Shown here: positions 9,932-38,805 of the stretch, piece after piece
Position numbering within the stretch: position 1 is the stretch's first letter
Layout: each line of letters opens with the position of its first letter
DNA from: Saprospiraceae bacterium
GTDB lineage: Bacteria > Bacteroidota > Bacteroidia > Chitinophagales > Saprospiraceae
DNA length: 39,101 nucleotides
Reading direction: 5' to 3'
Assembly (NCBI GenBank): GCA_029262975.1
Contig: JAJCYJ010000801.1
Span: 1 to 39,101, forward strand
Notes under the pieces: model-generated
Seen by the model: the letters and a program-made list of their open reading frames with translations, nothing else
What the model was told of the DNA's origin: nothing
Database searches by the model: none
Made by a program: the position numbers and the translations under genes

Positions 9932-10251
9932 TATGTCTGTGTTAATAAACTTGTAAAAATAATCAAGCCATCTTCTCTACCTAATTCTTTTATGTCCTCA
10001 ATCTTATAGTGACCGCCATTCCAAACTATTCTCATTTCATTTGTTATTGTAGAATGATATCGCGTTTTAAATTTTATCATTCTTTCAGTTGAACGGTTAT
10101 TGTCATCTGTTTTTTCTTTTCCTGTTTCGTGCATTTTTTGAGCCCACATAGACAAAAAATTACCCCAAGTAATATTCTCAAATCCGTCAGTCTGCCTAAC
10201 TATCGATTTTGATTCTATTATTATCCTTCTATCTAAATCTCCTGACTTCAT
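9931..10251 (-). CDS. head-tail adaptor (SPP1 gp16-like head closure)
   Basis: MKSGDLDRRIIIESKSIVRQTDGFENITWGNFLSMWAQKM typical of phage_H_T_join family. Confidence 0.85.
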   Translation of the reverse strand: MKSGDLDRRIIIESKSIVRQTDGFENITWGNFLSMWAQKMHETGKEKTDDNNRSTERMIKFKTRYHSTITNEMRIVWNGGHYKIEDIKELGREDGLIIFTSLLTQT

Positions 10252-10931
10252 AAATCTAATATAGCATCTATTTGTTTAGTCCCCAATCCTTCCATAGCTG
10301 TTTCAAAAGGTATAATTTCTCCAGGTAACTCTTTATAATTCCAAATGTTAATATCACTTTTTATGTCATATATCATATTATAATCATTCGCTATTTCAGT
10401 ATGTGAATGTCTTGAAAATTTTCTCATACTATTAGCATCAAACCCACATTCAATATTATTATCATACATTTCTCCTCTTTCTAAGAGTTCTTCTATTAAG
10501 TCCCTCCTTATACACCTTCCTGCCCCTATCAAGACTTTATAATCAAACGTTTTAGCTACCTTCTCTTCACTATCTATAAATGTTAACCTAGTGCATCCAA
10601 ACATCTTTAGGTTGTCATCAAAATAAGGTTCATAAAGCTTAAATAAGCTGCTAGTAATTATATCATCACTACCTAAATTCATTAAATAGTCAAACTTATA
10701 CTTCATAGCTTCCCGAACCCCTATGTTCATTTTAGTGCCTAAACACTCATTCGGTGCAGACACATATTTGAAACCATACGTAAAGGCTGCTATCTTAGCC
10801 CAACTTTCGCTAACTATGCAAAGAACGTTTAAATCAATTTCTTTTTTTAACTCTCTCAAATTTTCTAAACAAATTTGAGTAATTTTTTCTCTTTTCCAAA
10901 TTGGTAATAATATTAATATTTTTTTATCCAA
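10248..10931 (-). CDS. glycosyltransferase (GT-A/GT2-like)
   Basis: ILILLPIWKREKITQICLENLRELKK...MNLGSDDIITSSLF; probable TTG start at 10931 (TTGGATAA overlaps upstream stop); track start 11009 overlaps the connector gene. Confidence 0.75.
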   Translation of the reverse strand: MDKKILILLPIWKREKITQICLENLRELKKEIDLNVLCIVSESWAKIAAFTYGFKYVSAPNECLGTKMNIGVREAMKYKFDYLMNLGSDDIITSSLFKLYEPYFDDNLKMFGCTRLTFIDSEEKVAKTFDYKVLIGAGRCIRRDLIEELLERGEMYDNNIECGFDANSMRKFSRHSHTEIANDYNMIYDIKSDINIWNYKELPGEIIPFETAMEGLGTKQIDAILDL

Positions 10932-13749: not shown

Positions 13750-15030
13750 CTAAGTTAATTGCTCTGTTTCTTCAGTTTCTTCTTCCTCTACTTCTTCTTT
13801 TTCTGGCTGATTAGTTCCTTCTTCGTTTACTGGCGCTGAATTTAATTGTACAAATTTACTATCTCCACCATCATAAGGATTCATTTCCTCTAAAGCTCTT
13901 ATTTCGTTTGGGGAAATTCCCCCAACAGCAAACAGATTTTTATAAGCCTCCGTACGTGTTTTAATATCACCTCTTAATAATCCCTCTAAATTAAACTTAC
14001 TTTTTAATGTTTGTTTTTCCTGCTCCCTATATAGCTTTCTATTTATTTCTTCTTCGATGCTTATTACGAATGGTAAGACAGATTGTTTTACGAAGTTTAA
14101 ATCCTGCTGCGTTAAATTTGAGAATGTAGCGTGTGTTAAATCTCCTATCTTATCTGGAGGTAGAGTAAACCATCTTGCAATATCTTCTATAGAGAATCGT
14201 CTTGTTTCTAAAAATTGGCTAGCATCAGGAGGTATGGTTATTTGTTGGTACTTCATACCTTCTTCTAGGATTGATGTTTTATTTGACTTATTTACACCCT
14301 TATGTTTCTTGTCCCAAGAATCAGATATATTGTCTTGAGCTTTCTGAGTTAAAGAACCTGGATGCGTTAGAACTCCACTTGAACTCGCAGAGTTGGCATA
14401 AAATGAATTACCAAAATCTTCTGTTGCTTGTCCTAGCCCTAGATTATCTCTAGCATAATCTATAACACTTTTACCCATTATATTATCACCCTTACCCCTA
14501 AAATGTAACATTTGTGTTTGATCTGCAACTATTTTTGTGCCGTCTTCTAAAGAAATGTGATAAACTAAGACACCGTTAACTATCTCAATCTTTTCAACGC
14601 TATTAGGGTGTATTGGCATTATGGCGATAGGTCTAAAACTACCCCCTTTTTCAAACTCAATTAAATTAAATGAATTTCCCCACAATAGTATTTGAGGTAT
14701 AATAATTTGAATCCAAGTAGAATGCGTCATTAATGCGTTTGGTTCTCGCATCAACTGTGCTACAGGGTGTGAATTTTCTCTTATCTTTAAAGTGTCTGTA
14801 GTTCTTAATGTGGGAATAGGCAAGCTTAAAACAGCATTGGTATAAACACTAACAGCAGAATAGACTCCAGACAAATTCATTGCATTATCTGATGTAATTC
14901 TTATTCCTGATTTTGATTTTGTGCCAATTGAAAAAACATCCCAATTACCCTTTAAGAAATTATCAGATGAGCCACTGTGATTCCGTGTATCTTCTCTAAG
15001 TATATGAAATCGCGTAAAGGGTATTCTCAT
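13750..15030 (-). CDS. portal protein (HK97 family)
   Basis: SGVYSAVSVYTNAVLSLPIP...WGNSFNLIEFEKGG...MLHFRGKGDNIMGKSVIDYARDNLGLG; RFSIEDIARWFTLPPDKIGD. Confidence 0.95.
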   Translation of the reverse strand: MRIPFTRFHILREDTRNHSGSSDNFLKGNWDVFSIGTKSKSGIRITSDNAMNLSGVYSAVSVYTNAVLSLPIPTLRTTDTLKIRENSHPVAQLMREPNALMTHSTWIQIIIPQILLWGNSFNLIEFEKGGSFRPIAIMPIHPNSVEKIEIVNGVLVYHISLEDGTKIVADQTQMLHFRGKGDNIMGKSVIDYARDNLGLGQATEDFGNSFYANSASSSGVLTHPGSLTQKAQDNISDSWDKKHKGVNKSNKTSILEEGMKYQQITIPPDASQFLETRRFSIEDIARWFTLPPDKIGDLTHATFSNLTQQDLNFVKQSVLPFVISIEEEINRKLYREQEKQTLKSKFNLEGLLRGDIKTRTEAYKNLFAVGGISPNEIRALEEMNPYDGGDSKFVQLNSAPVNEEGTNQPEKEEVEEEETEETEQLT

Positions 15031-15077: not shown

Positions 15078-15755
15078 TTATTTCATACCAAAATAATCAT
15101 TAACTACTTTAGTTTCATAGTCGCAGTTTTGATGCTTATCGTGCCATATCGTGCTGTCCATTGGTTGGTATTTAATATAATCTTTTAGATGTGGTAAAAC
15201 TGTTATTGGTAATCCTTGCCTATCTACTTCTATTCCAACCCAAATATCCGCCATATTTGACTTTTTAAATATGTCGAATTTAGGACTAAAGTGTTTAGTG
15301 TGAAATCCCATTACTCCCGTACCTCCAAATTGAACGGTATCAATTTCTTTTACCTCATCTAGGCATCTATGCCTTTTCGTTGCTGAATGGTAATAATTAG
15401 ATATAGGGAAAGCGTTAAATGACCTACTATGATGCGTTACTATTCCATATTTATCTATTGCTTTAATCATATCTTTTACGTATGTTTTTGGGTAAATAAG
15501 GTCATCGTCTCCAGTTAGATAATATCCGTCTACTATAGCCACGAAAGCAAACTTATAAGCATCTCCTAATGTGTTATCTTTTTTCCAAAATGAGACAGAG
15601 GGGTATAGTTTTTTTAAATCTATTGTATCATTAAAACTGTAGCAATTTAGGGCTACATTAACCTTGTCAACTTGATTTATTATTGAAGCAACAGTTTTTA
15701 TTAGTTCATTTTTACGGCTTGGAATTGAAGCAATATTGAAGGTTATCTTATCCAT
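15078..15755 (-). CDS. glycosyltransferase (GT-A fold, DDD motif)
   Basis: NIASIPSRKNELIKTVASIINQVDKVNVALN...YYLTGDDDLIYPKTYV. Confidence 0.8.
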   Translation of the reverse strand: MDKITFNIASIPSRKNELIKTVASIINQVDKVNVALNCYSFNDTIDLKKLYPSVSFWKKDNTLGDAYKFAFVAIVDGYYLTGDDDLIYPKTYVKDMIKAIDKYGIVTHHSRSFNAFPISNYYHSATKRHRCLDEVKEIDTVQFGGTGVMGFHTKHFSPKFDIFKKSNMADIWVGIEVDRQGLPITVLPHLKDYIKYQPMDSTIWHDKHQNCDYETKVVNDYFGMK

Positions 15756-16365
15756 TAATTAAATAAGTTTTACGATTATTATTTCCAGTTGAATCATCTT
15801 TAGAATTATCTATTATTAATTTGATATTACAATCCTTAAAAAATTCTAGTTGTGGTTTACCTTCTTTATCGTTATTTGTTTCTAGTATTAATATAGCTCC
15901 AGTATCTAAAGACTTTTGATAAATCTCTTTCCAATTCTTAACCCAACTTCCAATACTAAGAATAAAGATAATGTCAGGATTAGACTTAAAATAACTATCC
16001 AAATCATTGTCTTTGTCAAAATCTGCTTGATATAAATGAACATTTCTTTCTAATATTTTAGTTATATTATTTCCAGCATTTATGGAATTAATATCATAAT
16101 CTAATCCTAATCCAATTTTAATCTCAGGTAAATGGTGTAACATTGCACCCACGTTGCAACCTAAATCTAACACTCTTTTATCTTTAAAATCTACGTACTT
16201 TCTCATTTCATCCAATCTCATTTTTGGATTTCTCTGGCCTTGAATATGTACATTTCCTATATCATAGGAATGATAGCCATAAGTGGTCCTGTTATTCCAT
16301 CCGTTATAATGTACTTCTCCTACTGTTTTTTTAAGTTGCTCTTTAATTAATGCCGAAATACTCAT
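15748..16365 (-). CDS. SAM-dependent methyltransferase
   Basis: KRVLDLGCNVGAMLHHLPEIKIGLGLDYD motif I. Confidence 0.85.
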   Translation of the reverse strand: MSISALIKEQLKKTVGEVHYNGWNNRTTYGYHSYDIGNVHIQGQRNPKMRLDEMRKYVDFKDKRVLDLGCNVGAMLHHLPEIKIGLGLDYDINSINAGNNITKILERNVHLYQADFDKDNDLDSYFKSNPDIIFILSIGSWVKNWKEIYQKSLDTGAILILETNNDKEGKPQLEFFKDCNIKLIIDNSKDDSTGNNNRKTYLING

Positions 16366-16687
16366 CCTTTAATTTTATATTATTAAATAACATTATTGCT
16401 AATCTATGGCATCCATCCAGCACAATGTATTTTTTTAAATCGTTACTCCATTCTAATTTTATCTTATCAATCTTATTTATGTCAAATGTTCTTTGTAATT
16501 TTTTAAATTTGATATATGAATGTTCTTTTTGGTTTTTTACCAAAATTCTATAATCTTTATAATCTTTAGTTATTAGCGATTTATGTTGTACAGAATCCTC
16601 TAATTTATAAACATAATGAGGATTAGAAAAACAAATGCTATTGTCTACTTTAATTAAATGCTTTACTAAAATATCCTTATAATCCAT
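16343..16687 (-). CDS. ParB-N-like domain protein
   Basis: KYIVLDGCHRLAIMLFNN resembles ParB/Srx-like VLDGxHRL motif. Confidence 0.6.
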   Translation of the reverse strand: MDYKDILVKHLIKVDNSICFSNPHYVYKLEDSVQHKSLITKDYKDYRILVKNQKEHSYIKFKKLQRTFDINKIDKIKLEWSNDLKKYIVLDGCHRLAIMLFNNIKLKDEYFGIN

Positions 16688-17333
16688 GTGATTTTAGTAA
16701 TCCTTTTATATCGTGTGTTTTTGTATTGAAATTGCTATTTTCGTGGATTCTGTGATGCACTAGTTCTTCATTTATGTTTTCAAAAGTACAACCTTTTTTA
16801 ATAAGTTTTAACCAAAAATCGTAATCTTCTATCCCGTCTAAATCTTCATTCCATCCTCCAACATCTATAGCATCTTTCTTATTAAACATAGCAGAAGTAT
16901 TAGCGATTTGATTAATTCCGTTCTTGGAATAATCTACTATATCTTGATGCTTTAAAAATAAAGTTGGACTACCTGTTATTTCTCCTAACTCATTGACGTA
17001 AAATATCTTAGAGCCAACTACCTCAACCATTACTTTAATCTGCTCCTGTAGTTTATTAGATAGCCAAATATCATCTCCATCTTGAATGCAAATCTTGTCT
17101 CCTTTAGTTTCCTTGAGAAGCTTATTCAAAGTCTTAGCCCTACCTTTTTCCTTATACTCAAATAGATTAATTCTATCGTCATTATAAGAGCATATAATCT
17201 CTTTACTTGAATCGGTAGATGCATTTAATCCTATCAATAATTCAAAATCTTTAAAACTTTGATTTAATACAGAATCAATAGCATCTTTTAAATAATTTTC
17301 TTCATTATGTATTGCCAATAAAATACTAATCAT
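16677..17333 (-). CDS. family 2 glycosyltransferase
   Basis: MISILLAIHNEENYLKDAIDSVLNQSFKDFELLIGLNASTDSSKEI...CIQDGDDIW. Confidence 0.93.
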   Translation of the reverse strand: MISILLAIHNEENYLKDAIDSVLNQSFKDFELLIGLNASTDSSKEIICSYNDDRINLFEYKEKGRAKTLNKLLKETKGDKICIQDGDDIWLSNKLQEQIKVMVEVVGSKIFYVNELGEITGSPTLFLKHQDIVDYSKNGINQIANTSAMFNKKDAIDVGGWNEDLDGIEDYDFWLKLIKKGCTFENINEELVHHRIHENSNFNTKTHDIKGLLKSHGL

Positions 17334-17336
17334 AAT

Positions 17337-17987
17337 TTATCCTCTTATTTCCTTATGATTTTTATCTAATGCGATTAATTTTGAATTATTGTTTTGATCT
17401 TTTTCTGGCGTGCAATAATCCCTATTTAAAATCAAGCTCGGCTTAACTTCTGTTAGGTATTTATTATAGTGCGTTTCATCGTGCCATCTAGCTATTATTC
17501 CTCTATCTAAATCCTTATCGATATTATCTGCTATCTCTTGGCTCATTTTCAAAAATGACTTACTTGTACCACCCTGAAAACCTCCACAACAATAAGTCTC
17601 AATATCCTCTGAATAAGCCGTAGATTCTTTATTTAGTTCAAAGGTGTTTTTGAAATTCCTAGACCCTGAATAAGGGTGGATGCAAGCCGTTAATCCATCG
17701 CCTAATATTTCACTTCCCACATCTTTACAAAATAACATGTCTACGTCAGAATAGAAAATATAATCAAAGGTTTTTAATATGTCTTTTTGCTTATTAAATT
17801 GGTGATACCTCATTAATGTTGGGTATGGAAATGGTTTATGTTTCATATAAAAAGTACAATCCTTGTCTCCAAAAGTAAATATGGTTATTTTATGACTTTT
17901 TAAAAAGAATTTAACAATAGAATCTATTAATGGTTTTAAAAACACATTATATTTTCCTGTTGCTATGACAGCCATCGCTATATTCAT
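17337..17987 (-). CDS. family 6 glycosyltransferase (ABO histo-blood-group transferase family)
   Basis: FDYIFYSDVDMLFCKDVGSEIL...IHPYSGSRNFKNTFELNKESTAYSEDIETYCCGGFQGGT...WHDETHYNKYLTEVKPSLILNRDY...KNHKEIRG, matching the ABO pattern (CLDVDMEF..GGFFGGS..WHDESHLNKYL..KNHQAVRN). Confidence 0.9.
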   Translation of the reverse strand: MNIAMAVIATGKYNVFLKPLIDSIVKFFLKSHKITIFTFGDKDCTFYMKHKPFPYPTLMRYHQFNKQKDILKTFDYIFYSDVDMLFCKDVGSEILGDGLTACIHPYSGSRNFKNTFELNKESTAYSEDIETYCCGGFQGGTSKSFLKMSQEIADNIDKDLDRGIIARWHDETHYNKYLTEVKPSLILNRDYCTPEKDQNNNSKLIALDKNHKEIRG

Positions 17988-18187
17988 TTTATTAATCTTG
18001 TTATTGCTCTATGAGGTGATTGCCATTGTCTATTGTCGTTATGACATTTACCAAAATATTTAACAATCTCAGAAGTAAATTCATCTCCCTTATAATGCAC
18101 CACCTTTTCAATAGTCATTATTTTTAAACCAATATCTGTCTTAAATTCAATCTTATCACCTACCTCGTACTTCATAATACGATCCAT
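17984..18187 (-). CDS. small beta-rich hypothetical protein
   Basis: ORF coupled on both sides (overlaps GT11 and GT6 genes). Confidence 0.6.
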   Translation of the reverse strand: MDRIMKYEVGDKIEFKTDIGLKIMTIEKVVHYKGDEFTSEIVKYFGKCHNDNRQWQSPHRAITRLIK

Positions 18188-18822
18188 TCAGCACAATACA
18201 AATCGCTAACATTAACATCCGATTTGCTTCCTGCAAACCATAATTTAGGGGCTATCACAACTTTGTTAGGGTTTTGATTCAGCCAAGCAGCCCACCAACT
18301 GAATGAACTATTACTTATAATATTATGCTCACATCTGCTCATTAATTCCATATCTTCCAGTTCATTTCCCTCTGCTATTTCAAAGGGGAAATGCTCTCCA
18401 CACCAAGTTCTGTCATCTGTAAATATTAAAAAATCTCTGTCTTTATATCCTACGTTTTTGAATCTTTGTATTGCTTCATTTAAATACTCTAAAGTTACTA
18501 CTGGATGACATTCTATATTAACATAATCACCTCGTCTTACATGTATAGACACTTTATCGATTGGCTCTGAGTTGAAGTTAAAATACTCCAATATCTCTCC
18601 TCTACAGTGGCTAAAATATTTTTCTGATTGAAAATATCCACTTAAGCAAATGTTGTCAAAATAGGGGACCTCTTTGTATTCAAAACAAGGCTCTTTATAT
18701 ATTGGATAATTCAAGTCTTGCTTAAAATTATAATCCATTCCATTCTTAATTGCGTAACCAATCACAGTTGCTTTTTGAAACATGTTATTTCCGAGCCTCC
18801 CTACAAATTTAATGCTTACCAT
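18172..18822 (-). CDS. family 11 glycosyltransferase (alpha-1,2-fucosyltransferase)
   Basis: GRLGNNMFQKA, LSGYFQSEKYF, VSIHVRRGDYV, DMELMSRCEHNIISNSSFSWWAAWLN motifs. Confidence 0.95.
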   Translation of the reverse strand: MVSIKFVGRLGNNMFQKATVIGYAIKNGMDYNFKQDLNYPIYKEPCFEYKEVPYFDNICLSGYFQSEKYFSHCRGEILEYFNFNSEPIDKVSIHVRRGDYVNIECHPVVTLEYLNEAIQRFKNVGYKDRDFLIFTDDRTWCGEHFPFEIAEGNELEDMELMSRCEHNIISNSSFSWWAAWLNQNPNKVVIAPKLWFAGSKSDVNVSDLYCAEWIVL

Positions 18823-19414
18823 ATCTTAAGTGTTTGTTATCAGTTTCGATATTTACCAAGTCACTGTAACCTTTTTTTTGCCAGGACAATTCAGGATAAG
18901 CAATAAAGCAATTATTGTTTTTTTGGTATTCAGTTAAGAGGACATCTACTTTAAATGCACGTTTTTCTAAATGATTTATTAACCCATCTATTGCATTCTT
19001 ATTAACCATATATGATTGTGTACATAACACATTTTTAGCTTTCTTAAGATGGGTAGAATAGTCTTCAATTGCATTTTTCCAAAGCAATGAACCGCCTAAA
19101 AATAAAATGTGCCAATCTCTGGGTAGTTCATTGAAGCTTTCGTTAAATCTTTTTATCAGATCAAAATCAAAAACGCAATCATCTTCCAATATTAATCCAT
19201 TTTCACCACTTTTCTGTATGAGTTTTAATGCTCTTAAGTGGCTTGCATAACACCCCATAGCGCCCTGCATAATTCCTGTATGTTCTGGAAAGTCTGTTTT
19301 ACCATCGGAAGCCTGAACTAAAATCATCTCCATCTCAAATTTTTTACATTCTTTAGTGATATGCTTGAGTCTATCAGGTCTTCTCTTAAGATTAATTACG
19401 TATGCTTTATTCAT
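18809..19414 (-). CDS. family 25 glycosyltransferase (LPS galactosyltransferase-like)
   Basis: AYVINLKRRPDRLKHI...GAMGCYASHLRALKLIQKSGENGLILEDDCVF. Confidence 0.9.
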   Translation of the reverse strand: MNKAYVINLKRRPDRLKHITKECKKFEMEMILVQASDGKTDFPEHTGIMQGAMGCYASHLRALKLIQKSGENGLILEDDCVFDFDLIKRFNESFNELPRDWHILFLGGSLLWKNAIEDYSTHLKKAKNVLCTQSYMVNKNAIDGLINHLEKRAFKVDVLLTEYQKNNNCFIAYPELSWQKKGYSDLVNIETDNKHLRYGKH

Positions 19415-20036
19415 AATGGTTCATTTTTGAGATTCCTTTTCTATGTATTACTAAACTTTCTATCGAGTGATACTGATTTAATCCTTTAGCATATAATTGC
19501 CTTGATATTTGTGCTCCAACTCCACTACTTAATTTATGATTTTCATCCCACCTATCTTTTGCAATTGGCTTTATATTCACTTCTTTAAAAAATTCACTAG
19601 TACAAATAAAACATAAATCTGACCACTGTGTTAAAATAACATTCCCTTTTATAAGAGGGTCAATTCCCGTCCAGCATTGTTTTTTTATCCTAACATCAGA
19701 AAGCAAAGATAAGCATATCTTTTTTTCATCTTTAATTTTCTGAAATAATTTTATAGATTTATTTACAAAGTCACAACAAAGTTCGACATCGTCTGGAATG
19801 AAAATAAAATAATCGTAATCTTCTGATTTTAGCTGTCTAAAAATTTGTCTATACTTAATCCATGCCTGTTTTTTTCCATAGTTTTTATGAAATTTATAAA
19901 AATAAAATTCACCTTCTATGTTAAAATTTGAGTTATCATCCCATACAATTATGTCTTCGCCTTTTAATTCCTCTAAGAGATTCAGCAATAGTTCTCTTCT
20001 ATCATAGGATGTTATGTTAATTAGAACTTTAGCCAT
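19407..20036 (-). CDS. glycosyltransferase (GT-A, GT2-like)
   Basis: VLINITSYDRRELLLNLLEEL...DIIVWDDNS...YFIFIPDDVELC. Confidence 0.75.
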   Translation of the reverse strand: MAKVLINITSYDRRELLLNLLEELKGEDIIVWDDNSNFNIEGEFYFYKFHKNYGKKQAWIKYRQIFRQLKSEDYDYFIFIPDDVELCCDFVNKSIKLFQKIKDEKKICLSLLSDVRIKKQCWTGIDPLIKGNVILTQWSDLCFICTSEFFKEVNIKPIAKDRWDENHKLSSGVGAQISRQLYAKGLNQYHSIESLVIHRKGISKMNHYE

Positions 20037-34792: not shown

Positions 34793-35626
34793 TTAAGTTA
34801 ATACTGCTAGTCTTTGAGCTGAAACAGCCTGCTCTCCAGCACTTGTTAAATGTGTGTTATCTCCTTGTAAACTCGTTATGTAATTTGTATTTGGTAAAAA
34901 TACGAAATTTGTCAAGCTTCCTACTGCTAATTGTGCTGCTCTTACTGTATCATTTGGTGCTTGTGGTCTACCTCCTACGGCTCCCCAGTCTGGGCTTTCT
35001 TGAATATAAATAGTTACATTTTCAAAAGCATCTCCAAACTTCGCTAGTCCAGCTCTTAATCTAGTATTTAAAATTTCAGTTAAATTAACCTCATAAGCAT
35101 TTGCGTGTGCTGCTGTATCTGAGTCGCTAAAGCCTTGAAACCAAAATACACCCTGAAAGTCTACATAATGCCCTAAAGCAACTATTTTAGGAATAGCTAC
35201 ATCACTAAGCCAATCAATATATCTGGTTAATAAATCAGGAACTAAAGCATCATTCCAGGTAGTTTGTGATAGTCCGTGAATGTTTGTTCCTCCAACCCCT
35301 TGTTTAATCATATAAATAGGCTTTCCTTTATCTGCCACGTAATCATATCCCAGAAACAATTCTGACCCGTGCAATGCTGTGGAAGCAGGACTATTTAATG
35401 GGCTAGATGGTGTTACTTGCCAAACGTTATTCTCATTGTATTCTAAAGTTTGCCAAGTTCCATTGTCTGCTGATGAATTGGTAGATTTTTGATATATATT
35501 AGCATCTGTTATAGCCGTTCGATAAGGAGCATTCAAATCAGAATCAATAGCACGACCATCTTCATTAGATTGTCCTAACGCAAGAATTAAAGTTACTCTT
35601 TGTATGTTATTTGAAAATTTACCCAT
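34793..35626 (-). CDS. SGNH/sialate O-acetylesterase-like carbohydrate esterase
   Basis: LILALGQSNEDGRAI, GVGGTNIHG, VFWFQGFSD, DNTHLTSAGEQAVS. Confidence 0.85.
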   Translation of the reverse strand: MGKFSNNIQRVTLILALGQSNEDGRAIDSDLNAPYRTAITDANIYQKSTNSSADNGTWQTLEYNENNVWQVTPSSPLNSPASTALHGSELFLGYDYVADKGKPIYMIKQGVGGTNIHGLSQTTWNDALVPDLLTRYIDWLSDVAIPKIVALGHYVDFQGVFWFQGFSDSDTAAHANAYEVNLTEILNTRLRAGLAKFGDAFENVTIYIQESPDWGAVGGRPQAPNDTVRAAQLAVGSLTNFVFLPNTNYITSLQGDNTHLTSAGEQAVSAQRLAVLT

Positions 35627-36384
35627 TATGCATAAAAATTACCCAAATCTGCTCTATCTTGTGCTGTTAGTAATTTATCAAAAAATAATATGTCTCCCAA
35701 TGAATTATCTCCATGTAAATCATCCACTCCATTATTATTTCTAGCCCCCAAAAACATATTGACATCTGAACTCCAAGTACTTGTATCTATTGTGCTTGTA
35801 TCTCCATTATTTGTTGCGTCTAAAGTTTCTTTAACTCCATTAACATAAATGTTTATTTGCTGTGCAGCAGTATCGTGATTAACTTCTATAATATATGTAT
35901 TAGCAGTACTAAACGCAGTTGTTGTTTGAGCTTTAATTGTCGTATTATTTATATTAAACTCAACATAAAAGGTATTATCCGAATGAAAATAGTGATAATA
36001 ATGGAATTGTATAGGTGTCACATATAGCTCTCCTAAGACAAATTGGAAATTAATACCTAAAGTGTCAGGTTTAATGATATAATAAGTTGTAAAGTCTCCA
36101 CTTAATGTAGCATTGAAAAAGCTATTCATGTCTAAATGCTCTTTATTCGTTTCATCAAATTGAACAAAAGATTTTGAACTTATTAAAATGTCGGATGGTC
36201 TTTCTATTGAAACTGATTGCGTAGCATCATTCCCCACCGTTGCATTCCAACTACTTATATTTGTAGGGTCAAGCGTATAATGGACGTTACCTGACTCTAA
36301 CCATAAACTAGGGCTTAAATCTAAAGGGCTGAATGCAGCATCACCAACTGAGCCGATTGATATTTTATTTTGAATGCTTAACAT
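35626..36384 (-). CDS. LamG/concanavalin-like appendage protein
   Basis: LSPSLWLESGNV...WNATVGNDATQS...INIYVNGVKETLDATNNGD. Confidence 0.75.
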   Translation of the reverse strand: MLSIQNKISIGSVGDAAFSPLDLSPSLWLESGNVHYTLDPTNISSWNATVGNDATQSVSIERPSDILISSKSFVQFDETNKEHLDMNSFFNATLSGDFTTYYIIKPDTLGINFQFVLGELYVTPIQFHYYHYFHSDNTFYVEFNINNTTIKAQTTTAFSTANTYIIEVNHDTAAQQINIYVNGVKETLDATNNGDTSTIDTSTWSSDVNMFLGARNNNGVDDLHGDNSLGDILFFDKLLTAQDRADLGNFYA

Positions 36385-36682: not shown

Positions 36683-38362
36683 TCAAACATCTATTATACC
36701 TCTGGTTTCATATACACTTGTATCTTCTTTTTCATTTCTTAATGCAGTCCAACATCCTATTGCCATAACAACAGATACCGGCCCATCTACTTTTTCTCTA
36801 CTTTTTTTCTTGTCTATTTTTATATTTTCAGCAGGGTCAATACTCAATTCTATATTTCCAATCATCCATCTCATCATAGGGTTTCCATCGTGAATTATCT
36901 TACCAGCCTTAACAAGTGCGATAAATTCTTTTGTTGGCTCGCTCATATCCTTAAATCCTTGACCAAATAATAATCCTTCTATTCCTTCTTTCTCTAAATT
37001 CTGTAATAAACCATTGAATGCACCCCACCTATCAAAGGTAAAACTTTCTATATCGTAAATTTCGTGAAGATTTAAAATATCACTAGTCATTTTATCATAG
37101 CTAATAATATCCTCCCCACATTCATTGACCCATCCGTCCATCTTCCATTGTTTATAATTTCCTATTTCATTTTTCTTTTCGATTGTATTTTTTGGAATCC
37201 AAAAATTTGTCTTTAAATATATTGGCTCGCCTTCTTTGTCGGGAGGAAATAATAATGGGAAGGAATTGGTGTCCATTTTTGCTGCTAAATCTAATCCTCC
37301 ATAGCATCTTCTACCAGTCAGGTCTGGTAATTCACCCCTACAAGATTGCCATTCTTCATCTGAAATACAAGCCATGCTGGAATCTGTCCATATATTGAGA
37401 TTTTTCGTCTTGAATTGCACCTCTTTCACTACCCCTTTATTAATAGCATCGTTTAATTCTTCCCTCATATACCTCCAGGTCGGAGTAATTCCTATGTTTG
37501 GATTTGATTTTACCCATACTTTTTCATCCTTCCAATCATCATCTTCGTCCAAAGTGAAGATGATGGCGAATAAACTATCGTCTTTTTTGATTCCCTGTAG
37601 TACTTCTGTAGCTAATTTACGCTCTATAGAATAGCAAGGATATTGTTTTTCAAATCCTGCCGTAGTAATAATAAACAACATTGGCTGTTCTCTAGATCCC
37701 ATTCCAGTTCTTATAACTTCTAATAGATCACTATCTACGTGCGCGTGGTATTCATCAATAATTCCTGCGTGAGGATTTAATCCATCTTCTTTATCTGAGT
37801 TGTTGCTCAGCGGTTCAAACTTAGAATTTGTTTCTAACATTGAAATATTACTTACTCCAACTATGGTTTGTTTTCTAATCGAAGCACTATCTTCTCTTAA
37901 TTTGATAATCATTTGTCTGGCAGCGTTAAAGACTATCTTTGCCTGTGGTAATTTTGTTGCAGCAGTGTAAACTTCTGCCCCAAATTCACCATCCTTTAGA
38001 AATAAAAAATTAGAAACTACTGCTGCCTCTTCACTTTTTCCATTCTTTCTCGCTACTTCTTGGTATGATTTTCTATATCTACGCGTCCCATCTAGATTCA
38101 TCCATCCAAATAACACCCAATATTTAAAAACTTGCTGTGGTGAAAACTCAATATACCTACCTTCTTTAGCTAATTTACCCTTGGTGTACTTACAATAAGA
38201 TGAAAAAGTAAGAAACCTGACGGCTGCTGCCTCATCGAAATAAATATCATCCCTTTCTAAATCTTTCAAATGTCTGTCTATTGCAAGTTTCACCCAATTA
38301 CAAACTAAGACTTTACCACTCTTCGCATCTCTGATATATTTATCTGTTATTTTTTTATACAT
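36683..38362 (-). CDS. terL: terminase large subunit
   Basis: FSPQQVFKYWVLFGWMNLDGTRRYRKSYQEVARKNGKSEEAAVVSNFLFLKDGEFGAEVYTAATKLPQAKIVFNAA; GIIDEYHAH; LDLAAKMDTNSF. Confidence 0.97.
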   Translation of the reverse strand: MYKKITDKYIRDAKSGKVLVCNWVKLAIDRHLKDLERDDIYFDEAAAVRFLTFSSYCKYTKGKLAKEGRYIEFSPQQVFKYWVLFGWMNLDGTRRYRKSYQEVARKNGKSEEAAVVSNFLFLKDGEFGAEVYTAATKLPQAKIVFNAARQMIIKLREDSASIRKQTIVGVSNISMLETNSKFEPLSNNSDKEDGLNPHAGIIDEYHAHVDSDLLEVIRTGMGSREQPMLFIITTAGFEKQYPCYSIERKLATEVLQGIKKDDSLFAIIFTLDEDDDWKDEKVWVKSNPNIGITPTWRYMREELNDAINKGVVKEVQFKTKNLNIWTDSSMACISDEEWQSCRGELPDLTGRRCYGGLDLAAKMDTNSFPLLFPPDKEGEPIYLKTNFWIPKNTIEKKNEIGNYKQWKMDGWVNECGEDIISYDKMTSDILNLHEIYDIESFTFDRWGAFNGLLQNLEKEGIEGLLFGQGFKDMSEPTKEFIALVKAGKIIHDGNPMMRWMIGNIELSIDPAENIKIDKKKSREKVDGPVSVVMAIGCWTALRNEKEDTSVYETRGIIDV

Positions 38363-38805
38363 TATAAATTAGCCAAAGGATCAATATCCTTCTTCTTCTT
38401 TTCTACCTCAATTTTAGTCCTTGCTAATGGTGTTAACCCAAACTCTTTAGCTAACTTATACGCTATCTCGAATGCTTTTGTTTTTATAGTAAAATGAGGA
38501 CTAACATTTTCATAATCGGATTTTTTAAACTTTATAGTATTTCCTTTTTTTCTTAAAATATCTATTGAGTCGAAATATATTCCAACTTCATTGCAATACA
38601 TTAGCAACATTGTAGTATCACATTCTGAAAATACTCCCCCATCTATCAACAATTTAGTTTGAGCATTCCACTCTTCGATAGCATAACTATTTATTAAGCC
38701 TTCGGGGACAAAAGATTCAGTTACGGCAGGAAGTTCTAAAGTTTCTTTCTCTCTACTTTTTTTTAACGTTCCTTTTAATTTCTTTTCCGCAGCAGTCTTG
38801 GTCAT
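38362..38805 (-). CDS. terS: terminase small subunit (P27 family)
   Basis: MTKTAAEKKLKGTLKKSREKE..., P27-like pattern, adjacent to TerL. Confidence 0.85.
   Translation of the reverse strand: MTKTAAEKKLKGTLKKSREKETLELPAVTESFVPEGLINSYAIEEWNAQTKLLIDGGVFSECDTTMLLMYCNEVGIYFDSIDILRKKGNTIKFKKSDYENVSPHFTIKTKAFEIAYKLAKEFGLTPLARTKIEVEKKKKDIDPLANL

Follow-up and report, generated by a model that had tools for sequence, protein, structure and literature searches.

Why does a phage genome carry genes of the glycosyltransferase (GT) families GT25, GT11 and GT6 in one block, and could their products together build a glycan resembling the ABO antigens? A first-pass annotation had proposed that the three enzymes could act consecutively, adding galactose, then fucose, then galactose or GalNAc, to form an A/B-antigen-like structure on the virion or the host surface. 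The DNA is contig C801, one of 1026 in a binned genome of 6.7 Mb, and the whole stretch analysed here, 39,101 nucleotides long, is referred to as the window. Because the contig encodes a portal, a major capsid protein, a head-tail adaptor, a major tail protein, a tape measure, a terminase and an endolysin, the window is a siphophage-type (HK97-type) genome of 39 kb. The host is probably a Saprospiraceae bacterium, linked to the phage by binning only. The rpoB of the binned genome shares 91% identity with the one in a Saprospiraceae MAG, a search of 297 other genomes of the family turned up distant portal homologues (27-33%) in three of them, and GC content is 32% in the phage vs 34-39% in seven sampled host stretches. 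Among 50,697 phage records, no relative with more than 60% identity was found by capsid or terminase. A terminal direct repeat, which would have marked the genome as complete, was looked for at the contig ends and not found. Joining the ends would place an HNH-like gene (733-1053) immediately ahead of the genes for the putative small and large terminase subunits (36683-38805, minus strand). This order is a common one and gives a hint that the genome may be complete and circularly permuted, though it has no end repeat. At 34793-36384 on the minus strand, a gene for a SASA-type carbohydrate esterase (PF03629, 1.3e-14) comes after that of an unassigned protein that looks LamG-like by eye, downstream of the terminase, so that the phage may also strip sugar modifications.

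The genes, coordinates and quoted motifs of GT25, GT11 and GT6 given in the first-pass annotation are all present. However, the cassette of three genes proposed there is part of a larger, nearly unbroken block of nine genes at 15078-20036, all on the minus strand, which comprises predicted glycosyltransferases and a methyltransferase and lies directly upstream of the portal gene (13750-15030, minus strand; phrog_12, 6.9e-105), the fixed landmark after the cassette. The upstream bookend is a GT-like gene (19407-20036; 63% identity to its homologue in L004, a related viral contig), followed by GT25 (18809-19414), GT11 (18172-18822), a 67-aa ORF (17984-18187) that separates GT11 from GT6 and overlaps both, GT6 (17337-17987), a GT2 glycosyltransferase (16677-17333; PF00535, 1.3e-20; 57-65% in relatives), a 114-aa protein with a DGCHR motif (16343-16687), a MetW-like SAM-dependent methyltransferase (15748-16365; PF07021, 2.7e-5) and, beside the portal, the downstream bookend, a KfiA/heparosan-synthase-B-like GT (15078-15755; profile matches to heparosan synthase B at 7.4e-23 and to KfiA at 2.3e-15). 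The family assignments, on which the first reading had staked its case, hold up well: GT25 (PF01755, 1.3e-16, 61 bits against a curated cut-off of 24, which places it in CAZy family GT25 by sequence), GT11 (PF01531, 8.2e-27, 95 bits against 23.9) and GT6 (PF03414, 2.7e-29, 102 bits against 25) all score far above the Pfam cut-offs and also match PHROG families of phage glycosyltransferases. Two other members are less clear. A homologue of the first gene (L380:3424-4089) matches PF00535 at E=0.0013, below the curated cut-off; the DGCHR-motif protein has neither a family above cut-off nor a solved relative, and is ParB-like by eye only. Sequence searches gave no usable solved relative for these two proteins or for a further candidate GT at 10248, and a profile comparison between the GT2 protein and these candidate GTs gave no signal, the profiles being too shallow.

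The GT6 protein matches BoGT6a in the PDB at 1.7e-24 and the human ABO transferases at about 1e-19. As expected of a CAZy GT6 member, it combines a score above the curated cut-off with the DXD motif, the WHDE motif and a C-terminal Lys; D81xD83, WHDE (W168-E171), K209 and R215 are invariant across 29 viral GT6 proteins. Its metal-binding DXD is shared with vertebrate and cyanophage GT6. DXD goes with metal dependence in this family, and the C-terminal Arg is kept in most metal-dependent members but not conserved in the bacterial ones, as described in a study that also mentions GT6 genes in two cyanophages (PMC3961637). The protein is predicted to be a metal-dependent retaining alpha-1,3-Gal/GalNAc transferase. 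By our own mapping to human numbering, made via the conserved HP and GG motifs, the donor-determining positions are mixed, with Cys at the equivalent of 266, Gly at that of 268 and Tyr at that of 235. The small Cys and Gly would allow a GalNAc donor, as in GTA, while the Tyr is the residue of neither human enzyme. A pattern scan of GTDB genomes found no relatives of this GT6; one further GT6 relative was found among 100 related genomes, in the same order.

GT11 is a compact form of 216 aa. Its AlphaFold model is confident (pLDDT 95.3, pTM 0.91), and the best Foldseek matches are the fucosyltransferases FUT1, FUT8 and POFUT1, at a moderate TM-score of about 0.5. Together with the score above cut-off, the HxRRGD motif (HVRRGDY) and the modelled GT-B fucosyltransferase fold agree with CAZy family GT11. 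The possibility that the gene is a short dead truncation was rejected, since its relatives are of the same size (215-217 aa) and the fold is confident. The family also holds the alpha-1,3-fucosyltransferase HhFT2, so that not all its members are alpha-1,2 enzymes (PMC4202792), and the GT11 of the window may make either linkage. GT25, a predicted member of a galactosyltransferase family, matches procollagen galactosyltransferase 1 at 1.7e-6. A collagen-like Gly-X-Y acceptor for GT25 was considered and discarded, because none of the structural ORFs checked has five GXX units in a row.

Does the GT11-GT6 pair recur elsewhere? The first-pass annotation was aware of no phage in which such a pairing had been described, yet the database records of the cyanophages Bellamy, B23, S-8S56 and DSL-LC03 show GT11 and GT6 as adjacent genes, each carrying its own glycosyltransferase annotation, and in P-SSM2 the two lie within 1.5 kb. 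The literature searched, from which most subscription journals were outside coverage, yielded no paper interpreting a viral GT11-GT6 pair, a weak absence. In non-redundant IMG/VR loci, a GT11 gene lies no more than 8 kb from GT6 in 49 of 64 cases, a figure that, like those that follow, is indicative, as the loci are not independent of one another by descent and some of the genes used to build the GT6 and GT11 models came from such pairs. Of these 49 pairs, 28 are within 2 kb and 12 within 150 bp, and in 40 GT11 is upstream of GT6 and co-directional with it. A quick GT6 tree requires the adjacency label to change eight times. Well-supported branches force four or more of these changes, any of which may be a loss rather than a gain. 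The reciprocal count is low, with GT6 in just 11 of 75 GT11 loci. GT-rich clusters also bring any two GT families together; GT11 is found in 21 of 41 GT25-centred loci (odds ratio 3.1 in the comparison with GT6-centred loci, p=0.011) and in 0 of 28 capsid-centred loci, though the latter are shorter. On sequence grounds, then, the pair is not unique to the window phage but recurs in other phages, and its recurrence and several separate adjacencies on the GT6 tree support a functional GT11-to-GT6 pair.

The cassette as a whole can be followed in related viral contigs. In L003 and L004 (IMG/VR), which are nearly identical and count as one lineage, the block stands in unchanged order upstream of the portal, with only the 67-aa ORF swapped. 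The first two genes are 62-63% identical to those of the window; the values for the others are 68% for GT11, 66% for GT6, 57% for GT2, 50% for the DGCHR protein (with DGCHR invariant), 72.5% for the methyltransferase and 57% for the KfiA-like gene; across the block this gives 50-73% gene by gene, where portal, protease and capsid reach 55-56%. A 15.9 kb contig, of which L002 and L180 are both parts, has retained GT11, GT6, GT2 and the KfiA-like gene ahead of its portal. The ORF between GT11 and GT6 is swapped from one relative to another: the 67-aa form is found in the window and partly in L002 (47% over 62 aa), and a 197-aa ORF takes its place in L003/L004 (L004 9411-10004). Farther away, the KfiA-like gene stands alone before the portal in G104, G111 has the first GT-like gene and the KfiA-like gene, and G113 reads terminase, first GT-like gene, HNH-type ORF, KfiA-like gene, portal. 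Across the 18 related contigs searched, many of them fragments in which absences are weak, the KfiA-like gene was found in 10, whereas the contigs of L002 and L004 were the only ones found to have both GT6 and GT11, and G117 has a distant GT6. In G117 a 1000-aa phage ORF (L382 9372-12374, minus strand), directly upstream of a terminase-like gene, fuses Galactosyl_T, DXD sugar-transferase-like, GT6 and GT2 regions. The position of the terminase differs among relatives: it directly precedes the GT slot in G113 (L381) but lies about 21 kb from the portal in the window, and in L004 early genes precede the slot. From these few contigs, the locus looks like a fixed slot with old bookend GTs and exchanged middle cargo. 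In every gene compared, differences are fewest at second codon positions, more at first and most at third, a pattern consistent with purifying selection. The cassette is real and conserved, and it is probably active.

How might it act? Our leading, though tentative, reading is that the cassette is a phage glycosylation system making a fucosylated, GT6-capped oligosaccharide, most likely on a virion protein. Its soluble enzymes would use sugar nucleotides in the cytoplasm, one enzyme after another. First, an acceptor would be lengthened by galactose or related sugars through GT25 and the other GTs. L-fucose, drawn from the GDP-fucose of the host, would then be attached by GT11, and the DXD-type GT6 would cap this fucosylated sugar with Gal or GalNAc in alpha linkage, so that the chain ends in a branched, A/B-antigen-like structure. 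The gene order GT25, GT11, GT6 is the one that a Gal, Fuc, Gal/GalNAc pathway needs, though gene order alone proves nothing. The fucose donor, on which the first-pass annotation had made its proposal depend, has a plausible source: the binned host genome has gmd (594 bits) with fcl adjoining, which would supply GDP-fucose if binning has named the right host. The two ingredients of an ABO-type pathway, a co-located GT11 and GT6 and a source of GDP-fucose in the binned host, are at hand, and an 'ABO-like' product is plausible. The coat of sugar on a virion protein may protect the particle, make it more diverse or help it to attach, and phages that exchange the cargo of the slot would come to differ in their coats. 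We infer the order of action, the linkages, the donor sugar, the acceptor and the virion target.

We favour the virion as target because the enzymes are soluble (no hydrophobic or membrane-spanning stretch was found in the cassette proteins), because the cassette stands before the portal, and because a candidate GT lies among the head-tail genes. This tentative GT-A-like gene among the head-tail connector genes (10248-10931, minus strand), whose start was moved to a TTG at 10931, has homologues in 17 related viral contigs (e.g. L004 17002-17679 and L180 4139-4816), most with 51-77% identity and three with 32-36%. Searches for a Pfam domain or a PDB sequence match found none for it; its model is of low confidence (pLDDT 48.7), with Foldseek matches mostly to GT-A glycosyltransferases over about 100 residues. 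Precedent exists in mycobacteriophages, where phage-encoded GTs glycosylate capsid and tail proteins (PMC12363180).

Alternatively, the cassette may serve the host surface, modifying LPS/LOS or capsule, for example to block superinfection or change a receptor. Seroconverting phages alter the surface glycan of their hosts, and the pathways that make LPS and capsule typically include enzymes of the GT25, GT11 and KfiA-like kinds. The GT11-GT6 pair WbwK and WbnI of E. coli O86 works in O-antigen assembly (PMC4202792), and fucose genes of cyanophage S-SCSM1 were read as cell-wall modification (PMC9602691). Early genes adjoin the cassette, which lies on their side of the portal, and this leaves late expression together with the virion genes uncertain. 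However, neither a flippase nor a lipid-carrier enzyme was found in it, nor any membrane-spanning stretch in its proteins, and the Gtr-type seroconversion set (gtrA flippase, gtrB bactoprenol GT and the membrane-embedded gtr transferase) found no family match in it. Moreover, no integrase was identified among the phage proteins searched, so lasting lysogenic conversion is not indicated. Given its early-gene neighbours and the LPS- and capsule-type relatives of its enzymes, we keep the host surface as a serious but less likely target.

Two further readings were weighed. GT11 and GT6 may simply be unrelated GTs that ended up in one cluster and use different acceptors, so that no A/B-like structure is made. 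The two are often kilobases apart or alone, 15 of the 64 GT6 loci lacking GT11 and 64 of the 75 GT11 loci lacking GT6, and the Tyr at the GT6 equivalent of 235, unlike either human enzyme, would fit such independence. Nevertheless, the upstream, co-directional placement of GT11 in 40 of the 49 pairs and the adjacency arising several times on the tree speak for a joint role, and characterised GT6 enzymes with such a role take fucosylated acceptors (PMC3961637, PMC4202792); we regard a chance cluster as rather improbable. The other reading, in which the substrate is neither protein nor lipid but hypermodified phage DNA, we consider very improbable. Phage GTs are able to glucosylate modified DNA, and the ParB-like look of the DGCHR-motif protein would suit that role. 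However, no base-hypermodification gene was found among the window proteins searched, and the enzymes known from GT6, GT11 and GT25 work on oligosaccharides and glycoproteins.

Returning to virion glycosylation, one may ask how far it extends. It could be that the GT11-to-GT6 relay is conserved, depends on metal, belongs to a viral lineage and serves Bacteroidota phages and cyanophages alike to coat their virions with histo-blood-group-like glycans, and that such GT cargo is swapped at a fixed locus beside the portal to vary the coat, a generalisation that we regard as rather unlikely. If the relay works, phages of aquatic bacteria would make ABO-like glycans, a source seldom considered, and a compact soluble enzyme pair would be at hand for glycan synthesis. 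If the coat is indeed on the virion, glycosylation of phage particles would extend beyond mycobacteriophages, and the locus would offer a testable instance of coat variation through cargo exchange at a single site.

The cassette is a variant of phage GT clusters already known, with an ABO-family enzyme pair. Mycobacteriophages Che8, Corndog and Myrna resemble the favoured mechanism in that their GTs act on their own structural proteins (cited in PMC12363180); there the glycan was shown on capsid and tail tube, whereas in the window it is gene position that points to the virion. E. coli O86 offers a close pathway, as WbwK (GT11) makes an H-type structure that WbnI (GT6) caps to B-type (PMC4202792). 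In contrast to that bacterial O-antigen pathway, the window genes are phage-borne and have no O-antigen export genes in the cassette. The cyanophage pairs (Bellamy, B23, S-8S56, DSL-LC03 and, within 1.5 kb, P-SSM2) are like the window in that a DXD-type GT6 is preceded, directly or at a short distance, by GT11 on the same strand of a GT cluster, but they sit in large myovirus genomes with cyanobacterial hosts and epimerase or phosphatase neighbours, their GT11 is about 262-269 aa long vs 216 in the window, and their GT6 is 31-42% identical to ours. Bacterial GT6 enzymes are mostly of the NXN type. The window GT6 is shorter (216 aa) than BoGT6a and human GTA/GTB and has no signal or stem region, but it shares with them the catalytic motifs and the conserved C-terminal Lys, and with GTA and BoGT6a the Gly at the equivalent of 268, and it carries the DXD of the vertebrate enzymes where BoGT6a has NXN.
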